A DNA stretch of 64,000 bases from Sthenelais limicola (lineage: Eukaryota; Annelida; Polychaeta; Phyllodocida; Sigalionidae). Below the pieces are notes generated by a model. It did not search any database. It was not told the DNA's origin and was given only the letters and a program-made list of their open reading frames with translations. Of the stretch, positions 1,403-59,199 are shown in pieces. Location of the stretch: assembly GCA_942159475.1 (NCBI GenBank), contig OW804096.1, positions 134,220,941 to 134,284,940 of the forward strand, given 5' to 3'. The first letter of the stretch is position 1. Each line of letters starts with the position of its first letter. The translations under genes and the position numbers were made by a program.

Positions 1403-1640
1403 TCACAGAAATTATGTGATATGGCACAGAAAAATGAGTCATAAGTCACAAAATATGAATTTTGACATATCATTATATTTTAAAAGAAGAGATCATATTT
1501 AAAAAGAAAGTTTGCAATATCTCTGGGTGGACATTTTACTAGTAAAATAGGTAAATATACTCTATAGGATGACCTTAGGAATGCATGGATATATTTATCA
1601 GACTGACCTGAAATTTGGTACATGTGTTCATGCTACAAAA
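1403..1640 (+). repeat. MITE-B fragment
   Basis: Divergent and 3'-truncated copy: ATGAGTCATAAGTCACAAAA, GACATATCATTATATTTTAAA and the TTTGCAATATCTCTGGGTGG segment match the MITE-B interior in order. From 1640 to 2255 I see nothing identifiable beyond AT-rich sequence. Confidence 0.5.
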
Positions 1641-2254
1641 GCACTAAGCACTCCAAAATGGATAGGAAAAGAGCAAAAACAAAAAGTATAAAGTCTTTAG
1701 ATGGTGATCGATGTTAATTGATTACCGTATGGAGACATTTAAGAATCTGTTTTAACCTAAAAATGTGAATATTCCCGCGTACATTTTATAAAATTATTCA
1801 CTTTTCATAGGCTTTTCGAAAACATTTCATCATGTGTTGTCAAGACCAGTAACTTCTCAATCAAAAGGAAATAATTCATTCTATATTTTAAAATTAAAAT
1901 TAAAGTAATAAAAATTGGTTTTGATAATAAAATTGGTTTTGATAACAAAAGGTCGATAGAAATACAGAACATTTCGCCAAACTGAGATCTTGTGGAAATC
2001 AATTTGTATCAACTTTGCGACTTTAGACTTTTTCTGGGACACACCAAATTTGATGCGTTCTAATATGGATGATTTTGAGGAATTGAGAACCTGGGCAGTA
2101 ACCCAGCCTTCTCGATCCCCCAGTCCTGCTCAGATTTGGAGATTCACTCTCACAGATTAAAAAAAAAAGTTACAAAACTCCGAAATCTAAAGTCACCATG
2201 TTTTCCACTCAATCTCTTTATTTTTATTTTTTACTCTCTTTCCTCTCTCGGTCT

Positions 2255-7742: not shown

Positions 7743-7870
7743 ATTGCATAATGTCTGGCTGAATTAGAATCATAAAACAAACACATTCATAAGGTCCACT
7801 GCACGAAGCTAGGGTTAATTTGCTTGGGAATTGCTACACGCTATTTATTCTTATGGGAACCCATACCATA

Positions 7871-21659: not shown

Positions 21660-21732
21660 GCCTCGATAGCTCAGTGGTTAGAGCATTGGAACGTCAATCC
21701 AAAAGTCCGGGGTTTGGTTCCCCATCAAGGCA
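21660..21732 (+). tRNA. tRNA-like sequence, probably a SINE head or tRNA pseudogene
   Basis: A 73-base tRNA-shaped segment. Acceptor arms pair at six of seven positions, the D arm contains a perfect box A (TAGCTCAGTGG), the anticodon stem TTGGA/TCCAA is intact, and a degraded box B (GGTTTGGTTCC) lies in the T arm. The nominal anticodon is GTC (Asp), but position 33 is C instead of U and the acceptor does not resemble tRNA-Asp. No CCA. I read it as a tRNA-derived SINE head or pseudogene, not a working tRNA. Confidence 0.5.
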
Positions 21733-37382: not shown

Positions 37383-37585
37383 AGGAAAAAAAAAATAGGT
37401 GTGTTTCCGATTTACCCCCCCCCCCCCCCCCCCCCCCCCCTCTACCAAGAAAAAACCTTCCCCTACCTAAACATTTTTTTGACCATATCTGATTTTTTGA
37501 AAAACATTTTTGGGATTTTGTGACATAAAAAACTTATAAAAGCAGGAAAACGGGTTTTCAAAAAGTCAAAAAGCACATTTCCCAT
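37383..37585 (-). mobile_element. MITE-E first half, interrupted by the LINE block
   Basis: AAAAATAGGTGTGTTTCCGA, a C-run, CCTTCCCCTACCTAAACATT and GGAAAACGGGTTTTC match the reverse complement of the complete MITE-E at 58841-59199, in order, and stop at CATTTCCCATG. The missing half lies at 51005-51110. The 5-7 base C tract of the family has grown to more than 20. Confidence 0.75.
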
Positions 37586-37884
37586 GTTTGTTTGTCTTAA
37601 GATTTTTATTCAGCAAGACATTAATTGGCGCGAATTTCAAAATGGTAGACCACTTTGCTTACTGCTCCGAGTAATCACATTTCATTCGGAAATATTTCAG
37701 ATTCTGGGTAGAATCATTACCGGATTTTTAGTTTGTGCACTGTAATCAGTGATTCTGCACAACTGGCCATGGAGTTAGGCCTCTTAAATGTGATATTTAT
37801 ATGACTTTGACGATTTTGCTTCTGAACATTTTGAAAGGTGAGCGATATTTGAGGTGATCACCTGTTGGTTACATGTAAACAGTA

Positions 37885-39717
37885 ATGGCTGCCAATAAAG
37901 AAATTGCCGGGACTGCATTCCCGCATAAGCCTGAGTCTAGTAGCACCCCGATATCCAGTAAAAGAACAAGTGAAGTGCTTTCCCCAGTTCTAAATGATGA
38001 CAAGAAGAAGGCCAAGAATGTCATGTCGGACTTAGATGAAATCAACGCGATTAAAGTGCATAGTCAAGGTGTTGACGAAGATCTCGAAACCCTATTTAGT
38101 CGTGCGGATTTACTAACTACCACTTCTGAGGACCAGGGTTTACTTCTACAGAAGATCCTGAAAAACCAAGAACACCTAACAAAGAAAGTGGATCTTCTAC
38201 AACAACAGATGATACATAAAGATGACTTACATGACTTGGCGACCCACGTCTCTAGGGATATGGGAACTCTTGACGAGAAGATCGAGGCACAGGCACGTAA
38301 GTCTAAGTATATGGCGTCTAGTGCACTTAAGACGAAAGATGACATGGAAATATTAAAACAACAGCAGAGGGAAACCTACGTTGTTTTGGAGAACTGTCCG
38401 ATGTTTAATGATGAGCACACCTTCAATCTGGCCAAGCGAATAATCCACACATTGTTTCCCACAGCTTGGGACGGAATCGTTGATCTTGCATACAGGGAAA
38501 TTAAATCCAATAATCGTAGAGGACCCAGTCCTATGGTTATTCGCCTACTACATCGCAGCATGAAGGAACAATTGGTTAGAAGAAGAAATCCCTTTGCCTC
38601 TGATGAAGTATTTCCCCCTGATCAATGGCCGGAGAAGGAGCACATGTTCTTTCATGACTATGATACTGTTGAAACACGTCAAAAGAAGAGTCTAATGAAG
38701 TTATTAGCCACAAATGCCATCGCTGCTGGTGCTGATCGGGAATACACAAAGCCAAAGGGAGATCAAGTGTTAATTGATGGTAATCTTTACAACTCTCGTC
38801 AACTGCACACCTTGGAGGATAAGTTCAGTGTAGAGAGAGTAAAAATCGTAAGAGTCCAGAACGGTCTTGCATTCCAGGGGGAGAAAGCCTATATGTCGAA
38901 CTTCTTTCCCTGTGATTTTCAGTATCAAGACAAATTTTTCATATCGTCTGAACAAGCATTTCAGTTTAAAAAGTGTATCGTTCTAGGTAATACTGATACT
39001 GCCAATGCTATACTTGAGAATGAAGATCCTCGTGAGATTAAATCTTTCGGTGATCACGTTGAAACAGCACCAAAGTGGCGAAGTGTTGAAAAGGAGGTAA
39101 TGTTGGATATTACACGATGCAAGTACTTCCAGAACCATAAGCTAGCAGTAAAATTGTCGAAGACCGGCACTGTACGGCTGATAGAAGCTACCAACAACTC
39201 TTTCTGGGGCGCGGGTTGTTATCTGGGTGACAGGCGCCTGGATGACGATTCATGGACCGGGAAAAATGAACTTGGGAAAATTCTCATGATCGTGAGACAG
39301 GAGATCATTAAGGCCTTGGCTGATGGTACGTTCGATAATCTCCAATGTAAGAAGCTGAGACTGGTATCATCTAAACACGCGGCCACTATGGATAGCACTG
39401 GATTCACCCGACCCAGGGTGTCGACATCGCTTGCTAATGCTCAAGTATCCTCTCCACCCGTTTCTGTGTCCAACAGGTATGCTCCTTTGAACTCTACGAC
39501 GGGTCAGGTAGGAGAAGGCACCTCTAAGACTCCACACCCAACTCTTCAGAAATGTAGTGACAAGTCCCAGCTTTACACCACAGCTGATATTGACATCTCC
39601 GCTCGAACCGCTAACAGGTCTCGTCGTCAGCTGAAGCCTTTACGCTTTGACATTTCTAAGAACATTGCTGACCTATCCGAGTCTGCCATGGATTTAGGCG
39701 ACCCAGAGGACACCTGA
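37885..39717 (+). CDS. LINE ORF1 protein with C-terminal NADAR domain (first element)
   Basis: 610 aa. Residues 1-45 are Ser/Lys-rich and probably disordered. About 60-165 is predicted coiled coil (ILKNQEHLTKKVDLLQQQM). About 165-325 resembles the L1-ORF1p nucleic-acid-binding region (ends DGNLYNSRQLHTLEDKF, the usual 'GKxYxxxxLxxLP' position). About 327-476 is a NADAR/YbiA-like domain: LSNFFP-type start (MSNFFPCDF), SSEQAFQFKK with E356 and K362, W398, the KYFQNHKLA helix, IEAT then WGAG (441-444), and GKNELGKILMIVR (459-471). These are the family's conserved blocks in the right order. The tail (477-610) is low complexity and ends in an acidic LSESAMDLGDPEDT. The protein should coat LINE RNA. 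The NADAR part could hydrolyse ADP-ribose adducts or bind ADP-ribose; that activity is inferred from the family. ATG at 37885 is the first in frame. Confidence 0.85.
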   Translation: MAANKEIAGTAFPHKPESSSTPISSKRTSEVLSPVLNDDKKKAKNVMSDLDEINAIKVHSQGVDEDLETLFSRADLLTTTSEDQGLLLQKILKNQEHLTKKVDLLQQQMIHKDDLHDLATHVSRDMGTLDEKIEAQARKSKYMASSALKTKDDMEILKQQQRETYVVLENCPMFNDEHTFNLAKRIIHTLFPTAWDGIVDLAYREIKSNNRRGPSPMVIRLLHRSMKEQLVRRRNPFASDEVFPPDQWPEKEHMFFHDYDTVETRQKKSLMKLLATNAIAAGADREYTKPKGDQVLIDGNLYNSRQLHTLEDKFSVERVKIVRVQNGLAFQGEKAYMSNFFPCDFQYQDKFFISSEQAFQFKKCIVLGNTDTANAILENEDPREIKSFGDHVETAPKWRSVEKEVMLDITRCKYFQNHKLAVKLSKTGTVRLIEATNNSFWGAGCYLGDRRLDDDSWTGKNELGKILMIVRQEIIKALADGTFDNLQCKKLRLVSSKHAATMDSTGFTRPRVSTSLANAQVSSPPVSVSNRYAPLNSTTGQVGEGTSKTPHPTLQKCSDKSQLYTTADIDISARTANRSRRQLKPLRFDISKNIADLSESAMDLGDPEDT

Positions 39718-40049
39718 GTTTATATCAGTATACTTTTTTCGGTTTCATTACGTACCAAATCAATGTATATCCATTATTCTTAGTTGTTGTTAGCCTGATT
39801 TTGACCAAACATGTGTGATGGCACCCATTTTGAATACCGAACATGGGTTCTGAATGTCGTAAACTACCACTCGAAACGCTGCCTCTATATAATAATGTGA
39901 TGCTTCCAAATTGCGATTTTGTTTATGGTATAGATATGGCCTAAACTATTATCTGTCTATTTTGTGGAAAGTTGTAGTGCATTGGTTTTTCTTTTTGCCA
40001 CGTCCCTGTCGTTGACCTATCGTAACTGGGTTCGTGATATGTAAATACC

Positions 40050-40060
40050 CAAGATGGCGG
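40050..40060 (+). promoter_or_regulatory. YY1-like motif before ORF2 of the first element
   Basis: CAAGATGGCGG, matching the AAGATGGCNGC-type YY1 core, lies in the ORF1-ORF2 spacer about 215 bases before ORF2. See the similar site at 43605 in the second element. Confidence 0.35.
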
Positions 40061-40275
40061 ACCATGTACGTCAACCCTTTCTCCGGTATGTTTTTATTTT
40101 CATAAAGTTGTGTTGCTGTCGTCTCTACCTATTTTTTGCCTACCCGGGATCGTTATTTCTGATACCTTGACCTCAGGCATGCATAATATTTTTGTCTGGG
40201 TTCCCCTGATTGTCTATTTGACTCCTGTTTTTCTTTTTTTTATTGGGCACTTTCACCTTCGACTGATTTCTCACG

Positions 40276-43173
40276 ATGTATTGTCATTCCAACATTGATG
40301 TCTCGACGATGAAAGGGCTAAAGATTGTATACTTTAATGTATGTAGTCTATATCATAAGTTGTATTATCTAAGAAATGAATTTGTAAATGGTCTATACGA
40401 CGTTATTTGCTTTGTTGAAAGCTGGCTGTCAGAGGATATTCCTGACTCTATGTTGCATATCAATGGGTATAACCTGATAAGACAAGATCGTTCCAGTGGT
40501 AAACGTGGTGGTGGCTTAATAGTGTACTATAGAAACACATTTACTGCTACCCTCGAGGACGACCTATGTGTAAACAATAAGGACTGCGAAATACTGTGTT
40601 GTAGGTTGAAAGCTGGTAACAATAAATCAATCTTGTTGTCGGTTATCTATAGACCCCCCAGTGGTTTGGTAGAGAGCTTTTTTACAAGTTTAAATCAGTT
40701 CTTATTGGGTGGTGTGAACAACCGATACCGGAATTCGAACATAATAATAGGTGGTGATGCAAATATAGATCTATTGAAACAAAATGTATCTAATAGACGT
40801 TTTATAAATTTATTGGACTCCTTCGGACTGGTGCAGCACATAACTGACCCCACCCGAATTACGTCTGAGACAGGTACTCTAATTGACTTTATTGCTACTA
40901 ATTGTAAGAACGTTGCTCATACTGGTACTATCAATGAGAATATAAGCGATCATGTCCCCGTATTTGTTGTTCTAAAAAAAGGGAAGTCACGTAGCTCACC
41001 TAGTATCAGTCCCACATTTAACTGTAGAGCAACATCCCGAATGTCCTTTGGTATTATAAACGATCGAGTATCCAACATTTATGAAGACCTATGGACTGAG
41101 CCCGACCTTGATCTCCTCAGTAATAATCTAATAAATGAACTGAAGGAAATTCAGGATGACTTATATCTGGTTGAAACCTTTAAGATTAGAAATGGCCATA
41201 TTGTACATAATAGAGAACTCCGACAGTTAGTCACAAGGAAAAACAGAGTCTTTAAAAAGGCTAGGAAAAGCAAAAATGTTGAAGATTTCAAACTAGCCAG
41301 ATCCCTGCGTATTGAAGTTCAGAGACTGATTGTAAGATTAAAAAGGGATGCTTTAAATAACATATGTCAACGTTTTAGTAGAAACGATAAGAAATTTTGG
41401 TCACACATCTCAAATATATATGGTATTGAGGGTCCCTCCCTAACTTCAATTGAGTGCATCACTGATACTGCGGGTAATACACTGACTGGTCTCGAAGCTG
41501 CTAATTATAGCAATCAGTTTTTTTGTAATATTATGCCGAAATCTTCTGTTGATATTCTCTCGGCGTATGATGAAGACATTGTGGATAATATTGACATGTT
41601 TGAGTGGGATGAGGAAATCGCCAGGAATGAGGTTGTGAAACATCTACAGACTATTGATGCAACCAAGTCAAGTGGAATTCTAGATGTAAACACAACGTTT
41701 TTGAAACTTGCTCTTCTATCTTGTGCCAATAATTTTACATTGCTACTAGATAAAATACGCCGGAGTGGATCCTTTCCTCAATCTTGGAAACTCTCCCTTT
41801 GTACCTTGATACCAAAGAAAAAAAATTCAAGATGTATAAATGATATTAGACCTATTTCAATAGCCCCTATGACTAGCAAGATATTTGAAAAGATCCTATC
41901 CGATAAAATTTCGAGCTATTTATCTGATAGAAATATTCTTGCACCATCCCAGCATGGTTTTAGGGTGGGAAAGAGTGTTGATACTGCTATGTACGAGTTC
42001 ATGAAGATAGTTGTTGAAAATAAGGATAGAAGTTTAGATACCATCGCAACTTATTTCGACTTATCTAAGGCGTTTAATTCTATAAATATTAACATCTTGA
42101 TGTATAAGCTGAAAAGATTGGGTTTTGGTCCTAGAATAATATCTCTGATAAACTCATATTCGATAAACAGAGAACAGATGGTATGTCTTAATGGTAAAAT
42201 GTCTGATAAACTGTCTTTACATGCTGGTGTGGCCCAAGGCAGTATCTTGGGACCCCTGCTGTTTATTTTGTACATTAACGACGTAGCTACTGTAAATTTC
42301 AGCGGAAAAATCATACTTTACGCAGATGATTGTGTGCTCCTGCATTGTATAAGGTCTGATAGAGACTTGGTCCATGTTCAAGAGGATGTAAATAGATTTA
42401 ATACCTGGACAGTGAATAATGGTCTGACAATTAATAGATCCAAGACCAAATTACAGACGTTCTACGGTACAAGGAAAAAAAATCACGATAATTATGTTAT
42501 ATATAATGATGGAGTCCAGATTGATAATGTTCAAAATTTTAGATATCTGGGGTACACTCTCGACAGTGGTTTGACAATGACGAATCATATTAATGGTGTC
42601 TGTTTAAGAGCTAACTTGCTATATAAAAGGCTGGCGCGAATAAGACATTATATTAGTGTTGGTATTGCAGTACTTATATTTAAAACATACATCCTTCCTG
42701 TGCTCGAATCTAGTTCTTTGATTTTGGACCTGGGTAATCAGAAAGATCGAAAGAGACTGCAGATAATACAGAATAATTGTCTTCGCTTATGTATAGGGGT
42801 AAAAACTAGGAATGGTGCTTATAGAATTAGCAATATTAATTTGCACCAGAGAATTGGAATTATCCCGTTATGTTATAGAAGACTGCAGAAATTCTTTAGT
42901 ATATTCCGGATTTGTCACACTTTTGAGGAGAATATCGCCCAGCATGAATATAACATGAGGGAAAATAGGTTGATGGTAGTTCCTTGGCATAAAGAAGCGA
43001 TTCGAAAGAGTTTATTTGGGCGAATTTTAAGTTTCTGGAATGCCCTCCCCAGAGAGATCAAGGTGAATAACGACCAAACCTTTTTTAAAAATCAAATAAG
43101 AAAAATTTGCTCAAATGCTTTTTCGACCAGCTTAAATGTCTGGGAAATTCCAACTCCTGAGAACCTATTGTGA
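40276..43173 (+). CDS. LINE ORF2: EEP endonuclease and reverse transcriptase (first element)
   Basis: 965 aa. The AP-endonuclease-like domain (about 14-235) has N21 in FNVCSL, E48 in FVESWL, YRPPSG (125-130), GGDANID (D161) and SDH (224-226), all expected catalytic positions. The RT domain (about 505-775) has RPISIAPMTSKIFEK, QHGFRVGKSVDTA, motif A FDLSKAFN (D595), motif B GVAQGSILGPLLF (Ala replaces the usual Pro), motif C YADD (682-685) and RYLGYTLD. The C-terminal part has the FWNALPREIK...FKNQIRKI module common in CR1/L2/Jockey-type LINEs. No RNase H. It would nick the target and prime reverse transcription. The frame is fully open, so the element may be active or only recently dead. A second ATG 12 codons downstream (40309) is also possible. 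Confidence 0.93.
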   Translation: MYCHSNIDVSTMKGLKIVYFNVCSLYHKLYYLRNEFVNGLYDVICFVESWLSEDIPDSMLHINGYNLIRQDRSSGKRGGGLIVYYRNTFTATLEDDLCVNNKDCEILCCRLKAGNNKSILLSVIYRPPSGLVESFFTSLNQFLLGGVNNRYRNSNIIIGGDANIDLLKQNVSNRRFINLLDSFGLVQHITDPTRITSETGTLIDFIATNCKNVAHTGTINENISDHVPVFVVLKKGKSRSSPSISPTFNCRATSRMSFGIINDRVSNIYEDLWTEPDLDLLSNNLINELKEIQDDLYLVETFKIRNGHIVHNRELRQLVTRKNRVFKKARKSKNVEDFKLARSLRIEVQRLIVRLKRDALNNICQRFSRNDKKFWSHISNIYGIEGPSLTSIECITDTAGNTLTGLEAANYSNQFFCNIMPKSSVDILSAYDEDIVDNIDMFEWDEEIARNEVVKHLQTIDATKSSGILDVNTTFLKLALLSCANNFTLLLDKIRRSGSFPQSWKLSLCTLIPKKKNSRCINDIRPISIAPMTSKIFEKILSDKISSYLSDRNILAPSQHGFRVGKSVDTAMYEFMKIVVENKDRSLDTIATYFDLSKAFNSININILMYKLKRLGFGPRIISLINSYSINREQMVCLNGKMSDKLSLHAGVAQGSILGPLLFILYINDVATVNFSGKIILYADDCVLLHCIRSDRDLVHVQEDVNRFNTWTVNNGLTINRSKTKLQTFYGTRKKNHDNYVIYNDGVQIDNVQNFRYLGYTLDSGLTMTNHINGVCLRANLLYKRLARIRHYISVGIAVLIFKTYILPVLESSSLILDLGNQKDRKRLQIIQNNCLRLCIGVKTRNGAYRISNINLHQRIGIIPLCYRRLQKFFSIFRICHTFEENIAQHEYNMRENRLMVVPWHKEAIRKSLFGRILSFWNALPREIKVNNDQTFFKNQIRKICSNAFSTSLNVWEIPTPENLL

Positions 43174-43528
43174 GGAAATTCAGTGAGATATGTCTAACTG
43201 TTATATGATGTCTCCCTTGGACGTGTGTATGGCTTTGTGAAATGCCCTTTCAGTCGTGATAGCTCTCCTTATCATATTTCTTTGAAGTCTTATAATGTAT
43301 TTTTCCTTTATTTTGTGTCAGAAACGATGCTATTAGGACTGTTGCAAATAGGATGATGCCCTTGGTGGTGGTTTTTATTGTGTGTGAATCGCAGCGTCAC
43401 TTGCTGTTAATGTCCTACATATCACTAGAACCTTTTTTGCTGTAATTAAACATTTTTATGTAATTTTTTCTCTAAGCAACCAGCTCTGAATGAGAATAGT
43501 GTACATTCTACATAATTTCATCTTGCTG

Positions 43529-43553
43529 AATAAACATCTTTAAAAACAAACAT
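43529..43553 (+). terminator. 3' end and polyadenylation signal of the first LINE
   Basis: AATAAA at 43529-43534 followed by CATCTTTAAAAACAAA. The second LINE ends with the similar GCTCAATAAAATTTCTTTAA, so this short tail motif is shared and is probably the RT recognition end. Confidence 0.6.
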
Positions 43554-43604
43554 TATGCAGAGTATGCACTATTCACAGAAAGGCTGATTTAAATGCAAGA
43601 GATG

Positions 43605-43615
43605 CAAGATGGCCG
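43605..43615 (+). promoter_or_regulatory. YY1-like motif in the second LINE leader
   Basis: CAAGATGGCCG, the same core as the YY1 site at the start of human L1, lies about 50 bases into the second element and 306 bases before ORF1. A related CAACATGGCCG sits in its ORF1-ORF2 spacer near 45960. Confidence 0.4.
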
Positions 43616-43920
43616 ACATACCCGCCAAACGTGAGAATTTTGACTAAGAGCCCTTACCTTCGCTACGAAGTAATCTGTATATAGGTGGGAGTATTTTTTA
43701 TTGTGAAACTGTCCGTAAAGTTCTCCGTCAGCATTATCTGCACGATTTTTGTGTCTCAAACTTGAAGTTCGCACATAATCGCTAAAAAACATCCAAGTGA
43801 GCGATATTCCAAGCATTGTAGTGCTCCATTGTTGTCAGTGCTCCATTGTTGTCAACCACTGTCAGTCTGTCAGACACACAAACACTAAACACAGCCGTCA
43901 CTGCATATGGTAACTCTGTT

Positions 43921-45618
43921 ATGAAGAGAAATGCGGCAGGACCGACTGGTTATTCTCCTGAACTAAAGAAGAATACTGCTCTCTCCACGATGAATCCCAT
44001 TCCTGATGATCCCTGGCTTATTAATCCGGATTTAACAGAAACTGAAGCGATCCGCTCTCTGTGCGTTAATCATAACCAGATCGTCAACGTGGTCGCGGAT
44101 ACTCAACAGCTATGTTCCGAAGTCGCAACTGGGCTCACGGAAGAGATCCTCACCAATAACAGACGTTCTGCAAAAACAACAAGGTTAGAGAACAAGTTAG
44201 CCGAGTTGGAGTATAAAGTTGACCATCTCACCGACCAGTTAAAAAGACAACAAATAATAAACAATGATATGGACACTAAGCTCCGCCAGAACTGTGTCAT
44301 TTTCAATGGTATCCTCTCTAAGAGAGATGAAATTGTGGAAAATAGATGTACCGAAGTGATTAAATTGGTAATCCCTGGATTCAGTGTCAACCAACTTGAT
44401 GAAACGTATAGGATTGTTTCTCATCACAAAGGTCAGGGGCATAGACGGCCAGACCCCATATCAGTCCGCTTCAAATATCTTAAGGACAAAAAGCAGTTTA
44501 TGATGGTGAAGGGTAAACTCTTCGACGCAAAACTATTTCCTCCCAACCAATATCCTGCGCATCGCCACTGGTCCTTCGAAGAAGACATTAACCCCGAGGT
44601 TCGTCGTCACCGCGGTTTAATTCGTCAAATTGCCAAGAAAGCCAACTTAACAAACCTTGACGTTGATGCCAAAGTTAAGGGCGATAAAGTTGTGGTTAAA
44701 GGAAAAACATACGCCCAAGACCAGCTATCCCTTCTGCCGAAATCAGTGCAACCCGAAAATATTAAGGTCCAGAAAGTAGCAGGGGGATTGGCTTATCAAA
44801 GTAGCTTTGCATGGCCATCTAACATGTATCCTTGTGAATTTCAACTTCAACGTGTGCGATTCAGCTCAGTCGAGCACGCATTCGTATACTATAAGGCTTT
44901 GAAGACAGGTAATGACACGGTTGCCAAAAAAGTGAGTCGTATGCGTAACCCGTACGAAATAAAGGAGATAAGTACCAAGATTACTCCCGATAATGAATGG
45001 CTGCGCAAGGAGGAATCCTACATGAAGAGCATTATTCGTGCTAAATTCGACCAAGATAAGGACTTACGAGCTCTACTCTTGTCGACTGGTGATATGAACC
45101 TCATAGAAGCGACACACGACTTGAGATGGGCCAGTGGTGTATACCTAGGTAGTGTTCTCCTCAAGACTGGAGGTTGGTCTGGACTTAACCGTCAAGGCGA
45201 AGTTCTGAAGCAAATAAGAACAGAAATGAGAGAAAAATACAAGCATGAAATGAGCAGTATCACCCCAATGTCACCGCCGCCCCAGCCTATCGAACAAAGC
45301 AAACTCAGCCCTGCCTCCGCCCAAAAGATCAAGTATCCACGGTTCTTCGACCACCACCCTACTCCTGAAGAAAACGCAGCCACAGCTAAAGCCCGTGGAG
45401 AAACAGACGCTAACATGGATGTTGGCGACTCTATTGATATAGATGAAGATGAACCTACTTTACTCGAAGCCGATATTTCCCCACAGAAACCCAGTCATTC
45501 CAGCACACCGGCCCCGCTGTTACTACGCCCCTCAAGACTGCGCACGGAATTAAATACTTCGGCTATCTCTCTGAATGAGTCTATTGACGGACTAAGAAAG
45601 GCCATGACACAAGTGTAA
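43921..45618 (+). CDS. LINE ORF1 protein with NADAR domain (second element)
   Basis: 565 aa from the first in-frame ATG; the frame is open further upstream but only TTG codons occur there. Residues about 55-120 are coiled-coil prone (LENKLAELEYKVDHLTDQLK). About 123-220 is an L1-ORF1p/Transposase_22-like RRM region (NCVIFNGIL, RIVSHHKGQGHRRPDPISVR, MVKGKLFDAKLFPP). About 240-275 gives the classic KGDKVVVKGKTYAQDQLSLLP end of that domain. About 287-437 is NADAR: PSNMYPCEF, FSSVEHAFVYYKAL with the Glu and Lys kept, KFDQDKDLRALLLSTGD, LIEATHDLRW. The two glycine-rich motifs are changed: WASG instead of WGxG, and GLNRQGEVLKQI instead of GKNxLGxxLM. The fold is probably retained but catalysis may be altered. 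The C-terminus (SRLRTELNTSAISLNESIDG) resembles the end of the first element's ORF1. Confidence 0.83.
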   Translation: MKRNAAGPTGYSPELKKNTALSTMNPIPDDPWLINPDLTETEAIRSLCVNHNQIVNVVADTQQLCSEVATGLTEEILTNNRRSAKTTRLENKLAELEYKVDHLTDQLKRQQIINNDMDTKLRQNCVIFNGILSKRDEIVENRCTEVIKLVIPGFSVNQLDETYRIVSHHKGQGHRRPDPISVRFKYLKDKKQFMMVKGKLFDAKLFPPNQYPAHRHWSFEEDINPEVRRHRGLIRQIAKKANLTNLDVDAKVKGDKVVVKGKTYAQDQLSLLPKSVQPENIKVQKVAGGLAYQSSFAWPSNMYPCEFQLQRVRFSSVEHAFVYYKALKTGNDTVAKKVSRMRNPYEIKEISTKITPDNEWLRKEESYMKSIIRAKFDQDKDLRALLLSTGDMNLIEATHDLRWASGVYLGSVLLKTGGWSGLNRQGEVLKQIRTEMREKYKHEMSSITPMSPPPQPIEQSKLSPASAQKIKYPRFFDHHPTPEENAATAKARGETDANMDVGDSIDIDEDEPTLLEADISPQKPSHSSTPAPLLLRPSRLRTELNTSAISLNESIDGLRKAMTQV

Positions 45619-46334
45619 TTATTTGACTTACCCCTTGGACAAGGTAGAACTCCTAAATTTAACCTCCATTGTCTCGTTAAAACTGCTTTAAACCACGCTT
45701 GTTTACATAAACATCGCCACCTTGAACACACGTGGAGCTGACCGGAAGCATGAAACCGGAAGACACTCGGCAGCAAATGCCGTAGGTTGGTAATCGAAAA
45801 AGATCACTGATTATAGGTTTAATTAATACTATCAGGGTTTGATAATTCAACTGATTTCATTATGTATCCTATTTGTACTACAAGCTAACCATACATGTCG
45901 GTTATGCAATTTTACCTAAATACGCTAATTTATTCTCTGCGGCCGGTACCAAAATATCCAACATGGCCGACTAAAGCTCAAGATTATTGAATCGAGGTTA
46001 GTGAATAGAAGTTTTTTGCCTATATCCTTGAAAGTTAGTCTTACCTTGTCATGATATCTTGTATATATGTTCCCTCCCACCACCGCAAAGCAATGTAGTA
46101 AGGATATTGGTCCAAAATTGATGGTTACCGATAAAAACCGACTTTTGTTGTATCTCGCGTTGACTCCTATGTCGCCAAGCCTATCAAGGCTAAACTCGTT
46201 CTTATTCCTATACGTATGGCACCTCTCTGATGTTTTATTGTTGTATGACCCTCTGAAGTCTGAATGTCTTGAAATGTTCCTAACACGTGATAAGGTTTGT
46301 CGAGAAATGATTATATTATCAAATAGTAACCGAA

Positions 46335-49229
46335 ATGGAATCGGTTGATCTTGACTCTGTAACGTCCTTACCTGGTTACGGCTTACTCTCTATCAATGTA
46401 CGCTCTCTTCGAAACAAGGTATCAGAAATAAGCAACACCTTATTGAACAAGTTTACTAAGATACTATGTATGCAGGAGACCTGGTTATCTAGTTCTGATA
46501 ATAACAGTAACCTCATCTCAGACCCTAACTATAATTTATTTCGTGTGGATAGACACTATGATGAAAATCCCGAAGTAACAAAAAAGGGAGGCGGAATTTG
46601 TACATATGTTCATAGAGAATTTGAAGTCGACGATAATTTATTGAATGATAATAACAAATGCTGTAAGGACCTGGAAATACAATGTTTGCTCATTAAGCCA
46701 GGGATGAGGCGTAAGGTTATCGTTATCAATATTTACCGCCCGCCATCTGGCGACAGAAACATGTTTATAGAATATCTAAATGATACTTTGAGAAACATAA
46801 AAACAACTGTAAATGGTACCAATATTATATTGTGTGGGGACATTAATATTAACATGCTAGAAGCACAGAATGATATAGTTGGAAACTTCCAAACTGTGAT
46901 GAGTGATTTTAACCTGTCACCCTTTATAGTCATCCCAACTAGGTACTCAAAAAATTCTAGCTCGCTGATTGATGTAATTTTTTCTGATCACCCGCATATT
47001 AATAATTCTGGTGTAATCGAATATAACATCTCTGACCATTTATGTACATATGTCCAGTTCAAGAAAAGCAGAGAGCCTGTTACTGTAGAGTCCAAGGTTG
47101 GTAGAAAATATCACAAGTTAAATGAAGAGCACCTAGTACGCTTTCTTCAACCCTATACAGAAGATGTAAATAGCTTTGGTAACCGTGGTAATAGTTCCGA
47201 ATACATCTGGTACAACCTAAAAACTTGTATGGAAGGCTACCTAGATAAAAATTGTCCCATCACTGAAACGAAAATCATCAGAAAAGGGAAATTTAAACTG
47301 GGGCACGACCTCATTAAGTTAATTAAAGAAAGAGACAAAAAATTCAAACGAGCTAAAGCCACGGGCTCCAACTCTATCTTAAAAGAAGCCATTGACCTAA
47401 GAAAAATTGTCAGTCGAGGAGTTGAGAGAAAGAAGAGGGAGGAAATTAGATCAGAAATCCAATCTTGCAGTAAGAATAGCAAAAAGTTTTGGAGAAAAGT
47501 TAACACTCTGATAGGTAGAGAAGAGAAATCGCTCCCCTCTAGCTTCAATCATGAAGGAAAAGAGGTTAAAAACAAAGAAGCTAGTAACCTTTTGAACAAA
47601 TACTTCGCCAATTTGGGTATGGCCAAAGAAAGCTCTGAAAAAAGATATACCCCCTACTTAAGAGATGATATTACTTTAACTTGTAGTACGAACATCCAAG
47701 TAAGTGAGGCCTTGGTAAGAAAACACATCAATGGGATTGAAATAACTAAGAATAGTGGTTTTGAATGGATTAATTCCAAAATTTTGAAGCTGTTTTTATT
47801 ATCTCTCGTCCCCCAAATAACTCTTCTTATGAAGACTTGTGTATCATCTTGTAAAATACCAAACGATTGGAAACAGTACGTAATTAAGCCAATACCCAAG
47901 GATGGAGATCTACGATCATTTAATAATTTAAGACCTATTGCCCTTGTGCCGGTTATGTCTAAACTATTCGAAAAAATAATATGCGTCCCTCTTACTAACC
48001 ATATGGAATTTAACAATCTTTTCTCAGATAGTCAAGGCGGTTTCAGACGGAATAAGTCTACGGACACCAGCCTCTTTGATTTCGTAACACCAATTTTTAA
48101 AGGTATGAACGAGGGTAAATGCTCTATTGCCTCTTACTACGACATATCTAAGGCCTTCAATTGCCTAAACCATGATATTCTAGAGGAAAAAATGACATAC
48201 TATAAAATTAACCCTACAATAAGAAGCCTGATCCTTGATTATTTGACAAACAGAAAGCAAAAAACTTGTCTATCAAATGTTACTTCTGACGCACTGCCTA
48301 TCAGCAGGGGGGTACCCCAGGGAAGCCATCTCGGCCCCATCTTATTTTTAATATTTATTAACGACTTACCCAATTGTCTACATGATGTAAATTACCCAGA
48401 TTACACCGTTAACATAACATTATACGCAGATGACACTGCTATAAGTGTAACAGGTACAGATAACACCAAGTGTGCAGAGATAAGTCAGTTAGCTGCAGGT
48501 AAAGTAAACTGCTGGATGAGGGATAACCTGTTGGCGCTAAATGAAAAAAAATGCCTTACCCAAATGATCGGTACAAAAAACAGGTTGAATAAAATAAAAA
48601 AATCGAATCCAATAAAACTCACCATTAATGGGATACAACTTCCGTGTAAGAAAATTGTGACCTATCTAGGGTACAGAGTTGATGAAAATCTATCGTTCGA
48701 TCCTCATTTTACCAGAGTTAAAAACTCTGCGATTTATAAACTAACACAGCTATCTCGTATAAGGAAGTATCTTACAACAAATATGGCCAAGTTAATCGTA
48801 AAAACCCATGTATTATCTTTGCTTCAGTATGGACTATTCTTATTGGGATTATCCCATGGGAAGGTCAGAACGAAACTGCAAAGAATACTAAATCGGGCTA
48901 TAAGATTCATTTTTCCATACGACATAAGAAACACAGAAGAGCTTAGTGGAGTGTGTAAAATCGAAAAGTTAGAAAAAAGAAGCAAAATCTCGTTATTGAG
49001 GATAATGTATAGCAGAAAGAATAAGGTGGTTGATACAAAAATTTGTACAAGAGAAACCAGGCAGCATGATGGCCATGTATTTCATATAGACAAACCAACT
49101 AATGAAAAATATAAGAAAAGCCCGTGCTATCTAGGTCCGCTACTCTGGAATAAATTGAACTGTCACCTTAGGAATGGGAAATGGTCATCTCTTAAGCTAC
49201 ACCTTAAGAAGAATGATTATTGGATGTAA
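46335..49229 (+). CDS. LINE ORF2: EEP endonuclease and reverse transcriptase (second element)
   Basis: 964 aa. The endonuclease domain (about 14-240) has INVRSLRNK, QETWL (E48), GGGICTYV, YRPPSG, CGDININ (D169) and NISDH (233-235). The RT domain (about 505-790) has LRPIALVPVMSKLFEKII, QGGFRRNKSTDTSL, motif A YDISKAFN (D603), motif B GVPQGSHLGPILF, motif C YADD (697-700) and TYLGYRVD. The remainder is a Lys-rich C-terminal region without an RNase H or a CCHC knuckle that I can see. All catalytic residues are present and the frame is open from end to end. Relative to the first element the RT keeps the canonical Pro in motif B. It starts 716 bases after ORF1, an unusually long spacer. Confidence 0.93.
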   Translation: MESVDLDSVTSLPGYGLLSINVRSLRNKVSEISNTLLNKFTKILCMQETWLSSSDNNSNLISDPNYNLFRVDRHYDENPEVTKKGGGICTYVHREFEVDDNLLNDNNKCCKDLEIQCLLIKPGMRRKVIVINIYRPPSGDRNMFIEYLNDTLRNIKTTVNGTNIILCGDININMLEAQNDIVGNFQTVMSDFNLSPFIVIPTRYSKNSSSLIDVIFSDHPHINNSGVIEYNISDHLCTYVQFKKSREPVTVESKVGRKYHKLNEEHLVRFLQPYTEDVNSFGNRGNSSEYIWYNLKTCMEGYLDKNCPITETKIIRKGKFKLGHDLIKLIKERDKKFKRAKATGSNSILKEAIDLRKIVSRGVERKKREEIRSEIQSCSKNSKKFWRKVNTLIGREEKSLPSSFNHEGKEVKNKEASNLLNKYFANLGMAKESSEKRYTPYLRDDITLTCSTNIQVSEALVRKHINGIEITKNSGFEWINSKILKLFLLSLVPQITLLMKTCVSSCKIPNDWKQYVIKPIPKDGDLRSFNNLRPIALVPVMSKLFEKIICVPLTNHMEFNNLFSDSQGGFRRNKSTDTSLFDFVTPIFKGMNEGKCSIASYYDISKAFNCLNHDILEEKMTYYKINPTIRSLILDYLTNRKQKTCLSNVTSDALPISRGVPQGSHLGPILFLIFINDLPNCLHDVNYPDYTVNITLYADDTAISVTGTDNTKCAEISQLAAGKVNCWMRDNLLALNEKKCLTQMIGTKNRLNKIKKSNPIKLTINGIQLPCKKIVTYLGYRVDENLSFDPHFTRVKNSAIYKLTQLSRIRKYLTTNMAKLIVKTHVLSLLQYGLFLLGLSHGKVRTKLQRILNRAIRFIFPYDIRNTEELSGVCKIEKLEKRSKISLLRIMYSRKNKVVDTKICTRETRQHDGHVFHIDKPTNEKYKKSPCYLGPLLWNKLNCHLRNGKWSSLKLHLKKNDYWM

Positions 49230-49642
49230 TAATGGCACAATTGTTCGTGAAGCGAAAGTCAATATGAGTGAAAATTAATTTATCGTAACATCGTCTAAGG
49301 ATGATCAGAAATCTATGAAACTTTGTCGTTTTTATTAGTCATACTAGATGTTGAACTCAACTAATTCTTGCCCTGATGAGAGGTGTCCATAAAAATATAA
49401 TGCAAAAAAATGTAAGCTTGTATATATTTAATCTGATGGTCATGAAAAAGGCCCAGGTATTGATTATTAATAACTGTGATAATAGTCGAAAAATGTTTAA
49501 ATTTAAAAAATCAATCGAAAATTGTGAATTACTCTAGCTACCTTCTTTGTCATTGATATTGCTTTTCACTTGAGTCTGTGAGATTATTAATGTATCTGTC
49601 ATTAAAACCAGCTCAATAAAATTTCTTTAAAAAAAAAAAAAA

Positions 49643-51004: not shown

Positions 51005-51110
51005 GCTTTAAACCAACTATTATTAGAAAATGGATTTTTTCAGTTCCTGGGAGGTGGTTTCCTAAAAAAAGTTTTCAGCCAGATAAATCGGAGACACACC
51101 TATTTTTTTT
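51005..51110 (-). mobile_element. MITE-E second half
   Basis: CTTTAAACCAACTATTATTA, CAGTTCCTGGGAGGTGG, GTTTTCAGCCAGATAAATCG and GAGACACACCTATTTTTTTT continue the element that stops near 37585. A 14-base G run follows. Confidence 0.75.
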
Positions 51111-52540
51111 TAGGGGGGGGGGGGGGCTTATCAAGACCCTTTGGAGCCAGACAGTTAAGAATCTCATTTTTATTGCCATGAATTATCTTTCCCATCCTAG
51201 TGAGGGACAGTGGTTGGGGGAACATTCATGTGCAAAGACACCTCCCTTGATATTCCGACCGGGAGGCATTTGACAGCAAGAGTTGAGTTACCGCCCGCAT
51301 AGGGATTGGTTAATAAGAAAATTTGACATTTGATCTAGTAATGAATATATACAGTGTCCTTAAAAAGAAAGTATATAAGGATCTTGTTCTAGCTTAAAAA
51401 TGAGGAGTTTGATCTTATTGTATTTGTGACAAGATACTTAGGTCATGAGATATGAAGAGCTATATAATAATTATATGGTTTACAGTCATAAGATATGGAG
51501 AGATAAATAGGCCTAATATATGGTTTACAGTCATGAGATATTGAGAGATATACATGTTTTTGTAAATCTAACCCATATGGTTTACCAATATTCTCTTTCT
51601 TAGTGCATATATGATGATTGTATCAATGGTTATACTTCCAGATAAGAAAAGATGTGAAGCGATTTATATATGTTTATATTAATTATGTGAGTATATGGTG
51701 AAACCTACTGTTTATAACACAAACGATAAAACCGAAATAAAATTTGATTTAGCATTGTAGAGGCCAAGAGGGCAGGTTAAGGAAATAAAGTCGATTTGCA
51801 AAAAAAAATGAAGAGTTGAATTACCTGTTCTTGTTTGTCCTCCACAATTGAAAATTCTGATTGTCATCTCGGCTGGCTATATATGATCGTCCAGGAAGCG
51901 TGCAGAACTAGGTCTGCATTCGCTTATTTTAGAAATAGAAAGTTATATTTTAATGATTAGTTTGAGTTATTAAGTCAAACAGAGGGACTTTCAAAGATAG
52001 TGTATTTCCCCCATTATATATATAATCATTTTTATTTCAACACATATTATACATATGACGATTTCACATTCAAAATTGTACATATATTGTAATGCATTAA
52101 AATAGGGTGAACACCCTCTAAAACTAGGTTTTCCTGGCGACCCTTAAAATAAAGAAATAATTGCTTCATTAATTCCTTCATAGTGTCTCTGATTGTTCGT
52201 TGTTTCAGCAATTTTTATTCTTATTTATTATTATTATAGTCAATTGAGTCTATCATTGCTCGTATTTCTCTTTTCATGAGTTTTAAAGTTCTTTATATAT
52301 CATCCTCATGTCTTGCTGATGTCTTGATGTCTTCATCTGTGATGACAGTGTACATAAATAAATTCCAGTCAAGCTTATCATTTTAGAATTATATAGTTCA
52401 GTTTTCATTAGTAATAGAAACTTGTTGCAATTTTGCAGTTGAACTGCATTCTCCTCAATCCTCATGAGGATAATGGGGGACTTATGTAAACCTTAATTGT
52501 GATGAATCAATGTAATTGTTTATATGCATGTAGCCTTCTA
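51111..52540. other. No gene seen
   Basis: AT-rich with scattered ATAT runs. A two-copy segment TGGTTTACAGTCA(T) occurs near 51478 and 51523. No domain-bearing frame. Confidence 0.45.
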
Positions 52541-58840: not shown

Positions 58841-59199
58841 AGGCCAAAAAAAAATATAGGTGTGTTTCCGATTTATCTGGCTGAAAACTAGGTAGGGGGG
58901 GGGTGGTAACTTTTTTTTTTTTTTTATTTATTTTTTTTTAAAACCACCTCCCAGGAACTGAAAAAAATGTCTATTTCATAACAATAGTTGTTTTAAACAT
59001 GGGAAATGTGCTTTTTTCACAGTTTCGGGTTAGGAAAACCCGTTTTCCTGCTATTATAAGCTTTTTTTGTCAAAAAATCTAAAAAAAGTAAGATATGAAG
59101 GGTAAAAAATCTGATATGGTGAAAAAAAAATTAGGTAGGGTAAGGTTTTTCTAGGTAGGGGGGGTAAATCGGAAACACACCTATTATTTTTCTTGGCCT
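58841..59199 (+). mobile_element. MITE-E, complete copy with TAA target
   Basis: Ends AGGCCAAAAAAAAATATAGG and inverse, with inverted TAGGTGTGTTTCCGATTTA at both sides. TAA flanks on each side would fit a PIF/Harbinger-type target. Interior T- and A-rich with GGGTTAGGAAAACCCG. It is the reference for the split copy at 37383/51110. Confidence 0.78.

Follow-up and report, generated by a model that had tools for sequence, protein, structure and literature searches.

Why a NADAR (YbiA-type) domain is found in a retrotransposon protein, and what it might do there, is the question raised by two long interspersed nuclear elements (LINEs), E1 and E2, of the annelid Sthenelais limicola. We analysed a stretch of 64,000 nucleotides (C3:134220941-134284940 of the 1.13-Gb assembly; the window), in which both elements carry the domain in their first open reading frame (ORF1). 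The recurrence of this arrangement in almost all examined copies of the genome suggests that the elements use the domain, perhaps against host defence.

NADAR in the ORF1 proteins of two LINEs

The two ORF1s were confirmed at the positions given in a preliminary description (37885-39717 and 43846-45618); the span it assigned to them as a whole (37885..45618) also includes the complete ORF2 of E1. The NADAR profile search proposed there was significant in both proteins. Pfam NADAR (PF08719) matched E1 with E 5.4e-29 (102 bits) and E2 with E 2.7e-24 (86.7 bits; cut-off 35.1), and NCBIfam TIGR02464 (cut-off 73.7 bits) gave 97.6 bits for E1 and 75.7, barely above the cut-off, for E2. By sequence alone the closest relatives in the PDB were 8bau, a Phytophthora NADAR, and 2b3w, YbiA; the predicted fold, also proposed there as a check, is of the YbiA type. 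A chance match or a misread domain was ruled out by these scores, relatives and fold.

In both proteins an RNA recognition motif (RRM) is followed by a C-terminal domain (CTD), as in L1 ORF1p, so that they are type II, L1-like ORF1s, and NADAR comes next. From the layout described earlier, NADAR and the RRM-CTD region were recovered in both and a coiled-coil-like signal in E1 only: in a home-made test the heptad signal of E1 was matched by 10 of 300 shuffles and that of E2 by 131 of 300, nothing beyond chance. Nor do the proteins end in NADAR, as had been thought; variable tails of 136 (E1) and 128 residues (E2) follow it. Behind each ORF1 lies an ORF2 with an apurinic-type endonuclease and a reverse transcriptase (RT), giving the two-ORF organisation of a LINE.

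The preliminary description knew of no role for NADAR in LINE biology, and the searchable open-licence literature offered none; the layout itself is not without precedent. Among the matches listed in open-licence full texts, only PMC12477816 (2025) places NADAR in a retroelement: it mentions, in passing, the domain in ORF1 of several Tx1 LINEs of the oyster Crassostrea gigas, calling its role unclear, and in Pol of Gypsy elements of the brown alga Ectocarpus. The Ectocarpus elements resemble E1 and E2 as NADAR-carrying retroelements, and the oyster LINEs in an ORF1 with YbiA-type NADAR; E1 and E2 may or may not belong to the same group as the latter. Compared with that passing mention, E1 and E2 come with the RRM-CTD-NADAR order, many copies, and tests of selection and co-inheritance. 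What is added here is the pairing of NADAR with a type II ORF1, the copy number, an active site that is retained and an origin that was likely single.

Type II ORF1s of L1, CR1, L2 and R1, as described in PMC4120745, share the RRM-CTD order (with E1 alone sharing the coiled-coil signal), to which E1 and E2 add a C-terminal enzyme domain; NADAR would be a further LINE ORF1 module beside the PHD and esterase modules named in that paper. Viral NADARs and DarT1-NADAR antitoxins (PMC9503650, PMC11543638) have the catalytic core and fold in common with E1 and E2, and are likewise erasers that belong to genetic parasites or to toxin-antitoxin pairs, but according to these sources they are free-standing or parts of viral polyproteins, whereas the NADAR of E1 and E2 sits in a LINE coat protein.

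Set against the oyster Tx1 elements, E1 has an ORF2 of 965 aa (964 aa in E2; both are shorter than human L1 ORF2p, 1275 aa) and an RT far from that of human L1: E1 matched it at 41-46 bits, E2 gave no L1 match at E 0.01, and the human L1 RT fragment stood on a very long branch in a tree set drawn by likeness to E1. The two ORF2s may be more like those of CR1/L2/Jockey-type elements.

Genomic copies and origin of the fusion

The preliminary description hinged on other LINE copies with the domain being present in the genome, and they were found in number. The NADAR profile gave 5561 first-look candidates, of which the best 150 were scored; all 150 lay above the cut-off, two with an internal stop. 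With E1 ORF1 as query there were at least 73 genomic matches including E1 itself, at 46-100% identity (72 scored of 5420 candidates); four others reached 97-99%, of which two span the greater part of the query and two a smaller portion.

Twenty NADAR loci (L025-L044) were fetched, chosen by eye from the best 150 rows for spread of frame length, which biases them toward canonical residues; NADAR score played no part in the choice of E1, E2 and the E1-type copies. At 20/20 of the fetched loci an ORF2 related to that of E1 and E2 lies downstream on the same strand, 588-1990 bp behind the NADAR frame (382-827 aa), as one frame within the stretch in 14. At 19 further loci the start of ORF2 was detected in all 14 E1-type copies (L046-L059) and in L020, and a 133-residue RT piece is the evidence at L018, so that a related ORF2 stands behind NADAR at 36 of the 39 examined places. 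Two others (L022 and L061) had no ORF2 within their 3.4-kb stretches, and are ORF1 pieces of the L027 type (97.5 and 97.6% identity). A host gene beside a LINE was ruled out, because each ORF1 is a single frame and the same ORF2 association recurs at these 36 places.

The remaining locus, L060 (G000:C1:94853754-94856779), contains a free-standing 162-aa NADAR (frame 1495-1980, minus strand, Pfam E 3e-31) and no LINE ORF2 in its stretch. A 223-aa frame downstream had no Pfam match, and two similar places on C1 (89380390 and 66983187) likewise hold 162-aa frames; NADARs of this type may represent another repeat that carries the domain, or a family of host genes. Elsewhere, none of the candidates scored in protein databases matched E1 ORF1, the viral collection gave no LINE relative (NADAR queries returned viral NADARs only), and for the NADAR domain the genome collection yielded no relative that could be confirmed.

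E1 and E2 are distant from each other (ORF1 31% over 315 residues, ORF2 30.5% over 909). The alignment of their ORF1s has no gap between the late part of the CTD and the end of NADAR, the joint included, which points to one fusion. Across 21 rows, NADAR and RT distances were correlated at 0.951 (0/5000 permutations), a value inflated by close copies, and the midpoint-rooted trees, computed without L033 (RT piece too short), had the same 9/12 split, with support of 99/98 for RT and 88/92 for NADAR. The placement of E2 is unsure because these trees bring together long branches, including those of E1 and E2. A small NADAR tree with viral rows did not resolve E1 with E2; uniting them in one clade lowered the likelihood by 1.06 and was not rejected (p-AU 0.327). 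In the first RT tree the likelihood favoured E1 and E2 together by 7.87 (p-AU 0.69), a result that demonstrates no clade. When 12 chosen NADAR-LINE RTs (of 22) were placed with 20 RTs chosen from a database (120 listed of 5983), whose own ORF1s may or may not carry NADAR, 2 label changes were counted, and a NADAR-LINE clade appeared in 36% of bootstrap trees and was not rejected (p-AU 0.414). Most likely NADAR was gained once, before this LINE group radiated, and the common origin proposed earlier for the domain in E1 and E2 is supported as the likelier history by the gap-free joint and the co-inheritance of NADAR and RT. Independent gains were judged unlikely from the joint, though the small NADAR tree gave no resolution and the phage NADAR L008 is as close or closer to each of the two as they are to each other.

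Selection, active site and possible function

Among 22 ORF1s (the 20 fetched, E1 and E2), mean identity was highest in NADAR (42.5%), followed by CTD (35.3), RRM (27.7), N-terminus (22.9) and tail (20.0), with fewer comparable pairs for RRM and N-terminus. E1 was compared with 14 rows of its type, one of which (L045) is E1 itself, L059 being left out with a frame under 560 aa. Against the close copy L046, NADAR had dN 0.009 and dS 0.110, a ratio of 0.08, with 0.06 for RRM-CTD, 0.37 for the coil and 0.32 for the tail. The NADAR ratio was usable in 3 of 13 copies, the other two (L048 and L049) giving 0.02 at a dS of 2.8, near saturation; dS was saturated in nine, and L047 had no NADAR change and a tail ratio of 0.8. 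Between E1 and E2 the NADAR codons differ at position 2 in 64/142 and at position 3 in 98/142 (p 7e-5), as expected from protein-level constraint. NADAR therefore shows signs of purifying selection in these sequences, and the earlier suggestion that selection kept the domain was borne out by its rank within ORF1 and the low ratios.

Residue names follow the 8bau paper (PMC11543638), whose 13 named residues fit the 8bau chain at offset 2 (by eye). The catalytic E43 and K50 and the YbiA-branch E125 are E, K and E in both E1 and E2. All 22 LINE NADARs keep E43, K75, W89, E125, W133 and, in the GxN motif, G and N; position 50 is K in 12 and R in 10, and position 130 is D in 19 and N in three, E1 among them. 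Within the E1 subfamily, nine listed positions are identical across all 15 rows (E1 present twice). For viral comparison 11 of 14 loci were used (L005, L012 and L014 were near-duplicates or partial). R93 is basic in 13/22 LINE NADARs and 9/11 viral rows; all ten copies with K50R (among L025-L044) have K at this position, a possible compensating change in the phosphate site. Judged from the aligned residues, the catalytic core is retained and the pyrophosphate contacts are shifted.

The sequences show the domain with its predicted fold, a joint that can be aligned, recurrence in most of the relatives examined, retained catalytic residues and signs of purifying selection. We give about an even chance to the reading that E1 and E2 are open-ORF members of a large LINE group whose ORF1 carries a C-terminal NADAR hydrolase that erases host ADP-ribosylation. 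The steps of coating, cleavage and host blocking, inferred from published cases, would run as follows. ORF1p would coat the LINE RNA through RRM-CTD, placing many NADAR copies on the ribonucleoprotein (RNP); host ADP-ribosyltransferases would attach ADP-ribose to it and block reverse transcription; and NADAR, by its predicted activity, would split off ADP-ribose at the N-glycosidic bond, with guanine in RNA or cDNA as the most likely site and RNP proteins as a less likely one. The LINE would thus bring its own eraser, like some RNA viruses with macrodomains or NADARs in their polyproteins, the latter proposed to reverse host ADP-ribosylation (PMC9503650). Tested NADARs are reported to remove ADP-ribose from guanine (PMC11543638, PMC11125620), CARP-1 in six clams to ADP-ribosylate DNA guanine at N2 (PMC11209040), and PARP13/ZAP to restrict human L1 (PMC4441479); the clam enzyme would bear on these LINEs as an analogy only. 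That an entire LINE radiation has a nucleic-acid de-ADP-ribosylase on its ORF1 coat is a further step, which we regard as somewhat doubtful.

Several observations weigh against this eraser reading. Position 79, the arginine that holds the pyrophosphate in 8bau (PMC11543638), is basic in 0/22 LINE NADARs and R/K in 9/11 viral ones, so the substrate may differ from plain ADP-ribosyl-guanine; E1 and E2 both have E at position 93, and E1 has N at position 130. The NADARs of E1 and E2 are 35.2% identical, and the phage NADAR L008 is closer to each (40.0% to E1, 36.0% to E2). L060, finally, is a genomic NADAR outside a LINE.

A core kept intact while the R79 contact is lost in 22/22 would also suit an active N-glycosidase or hydrolase on another substrate, such as small ADP-ribose signals in host immunity, an RNA cap derived from NAD or a product of RNA processing, rather than on ADP-ribosylated nucleic acid. 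For viral NADARs, action on RNA by-products or soluble derivatives has been proposed (PMC9503650), and the nematode SNA-3 ties NADAR to RNA processing (PMC9303266); yet four E. coli-type NADARs were active on guanosine-ADPr (PMC11125620), for the RNA viruses of animals PMC9503650 prefers macromolecular targets, and a place on an RNP coat protein would better suit a macromolecular substrate, so we hold this to be unlikely. The altered contacts at R79, R93 and, in E1, D130, together with R for K50 in 10/22, could instead fit a non-enzymatic module of the ORF1 particle that binds nucleic acid or partners bearing ADP-ribose. Binding alone explains poorly why seven active-site or motif positions, E43 and E125 included, are invariant in 22/22, and we consider such a module quite improbable. 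Acquisition and exchange of ORF1 modules do occur in LINEs (PMC4120745), but a functionless chance capture in few copies is hard to square with 150 scored places and the ORF2 behind nearly all of those examined, with NADAR being more conserved than the rest of ORF1, or with the low dN/dS in three usable pairs, two near saturation; we give it almost no credence.

Little is established about the roles of animal NADARs, one studied case being a nematode trans-splicing protein (PMC9303266). A NADAR linked to a multi-copy selfish element under selection would allow a direct genetic readout, retrotransposition. ADP-ribosylation may be a defence layer against retrotransposons; if an entire LINE radiation does carry such a de-ADP-ribosylase, its host would defend the genome by ADP-ribosylating the RNA or cDNA of retroelements, with CARP-1-like guanine transferases as one example of the enzymes involved, an arms race of which we met no description in the literature.

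Organisation of the two elements in the window

Table 1. Positions of E1, E2 and their parts in the window.
Feature	Position	Strand	Remarks
LINE E1, full-length copy	37624..43553	+	5' end from copy matches, 3' end from tail common to relics
E1 ORF1, 610 aa: coiled-coil-like N-terminus, RRM-CTD region, NADAR, variable tail	37885..39717	+	
E1 NADAR domain, residues 333-474	38881..39306	+	
E1 ORF2, endonuclease and RT	40276..43173	+	RVT_1 E 1.4e-32, Exo_endo_phos_2 E 7.7e-07
LINE E2, head-to-tail behind E1	43556..49642	+	ends inferred; tail similarity, family D10
E2 ORF1, 590 aa: RRM-CTD as in L1 ORF1p, NADAR, variable tail	43846..45618	+	
E2 NADAR domain, residues 321-462	44806..45231	+	
E2 ORF2, endonuclease and RT	46335..49229	+	RVT_1 E 3.8e-29, Exo_endo_phos E 8.8e-10

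The 5' end of E1 was set near 37624 because 13 of the 14 other E1-type copies begin to match at 37623-37628 (L048 begins at 37913). Its 3' tail ends near 43553, E2 beginning soon after, and is also found in relics at 37584-37623 (-) and 7749-7783 (+). The former, an inverted tail piece, abuts the 5' end of E1; it may belong to an older copy or have arisen by 5' inversion when E1 inserted. The 3' end of E2 was placed at the A-run 49629-49642. The 590-aa frame of E2 ORF1 starts with TTG, and its first in-frame ATG is at 43921 (counted by eye). A 12-mer, GTGAGCGATATT, is common to both 5' untranslated regions shortly before ORF1 (37840 and 43797; seen by eye, and could be chance).

The block containing E1 and E2 splits a repeat resembling a miniature inverted-repeat transposable element into halves at 37386-37589 and 51007-51111; its inverted ends are about 29-35 bp, and an intact copy lies at 58847-59191. 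A tRNA-Asp (GTC) gene at 21660-21732 is the only Rfam match above gathering score in the window.

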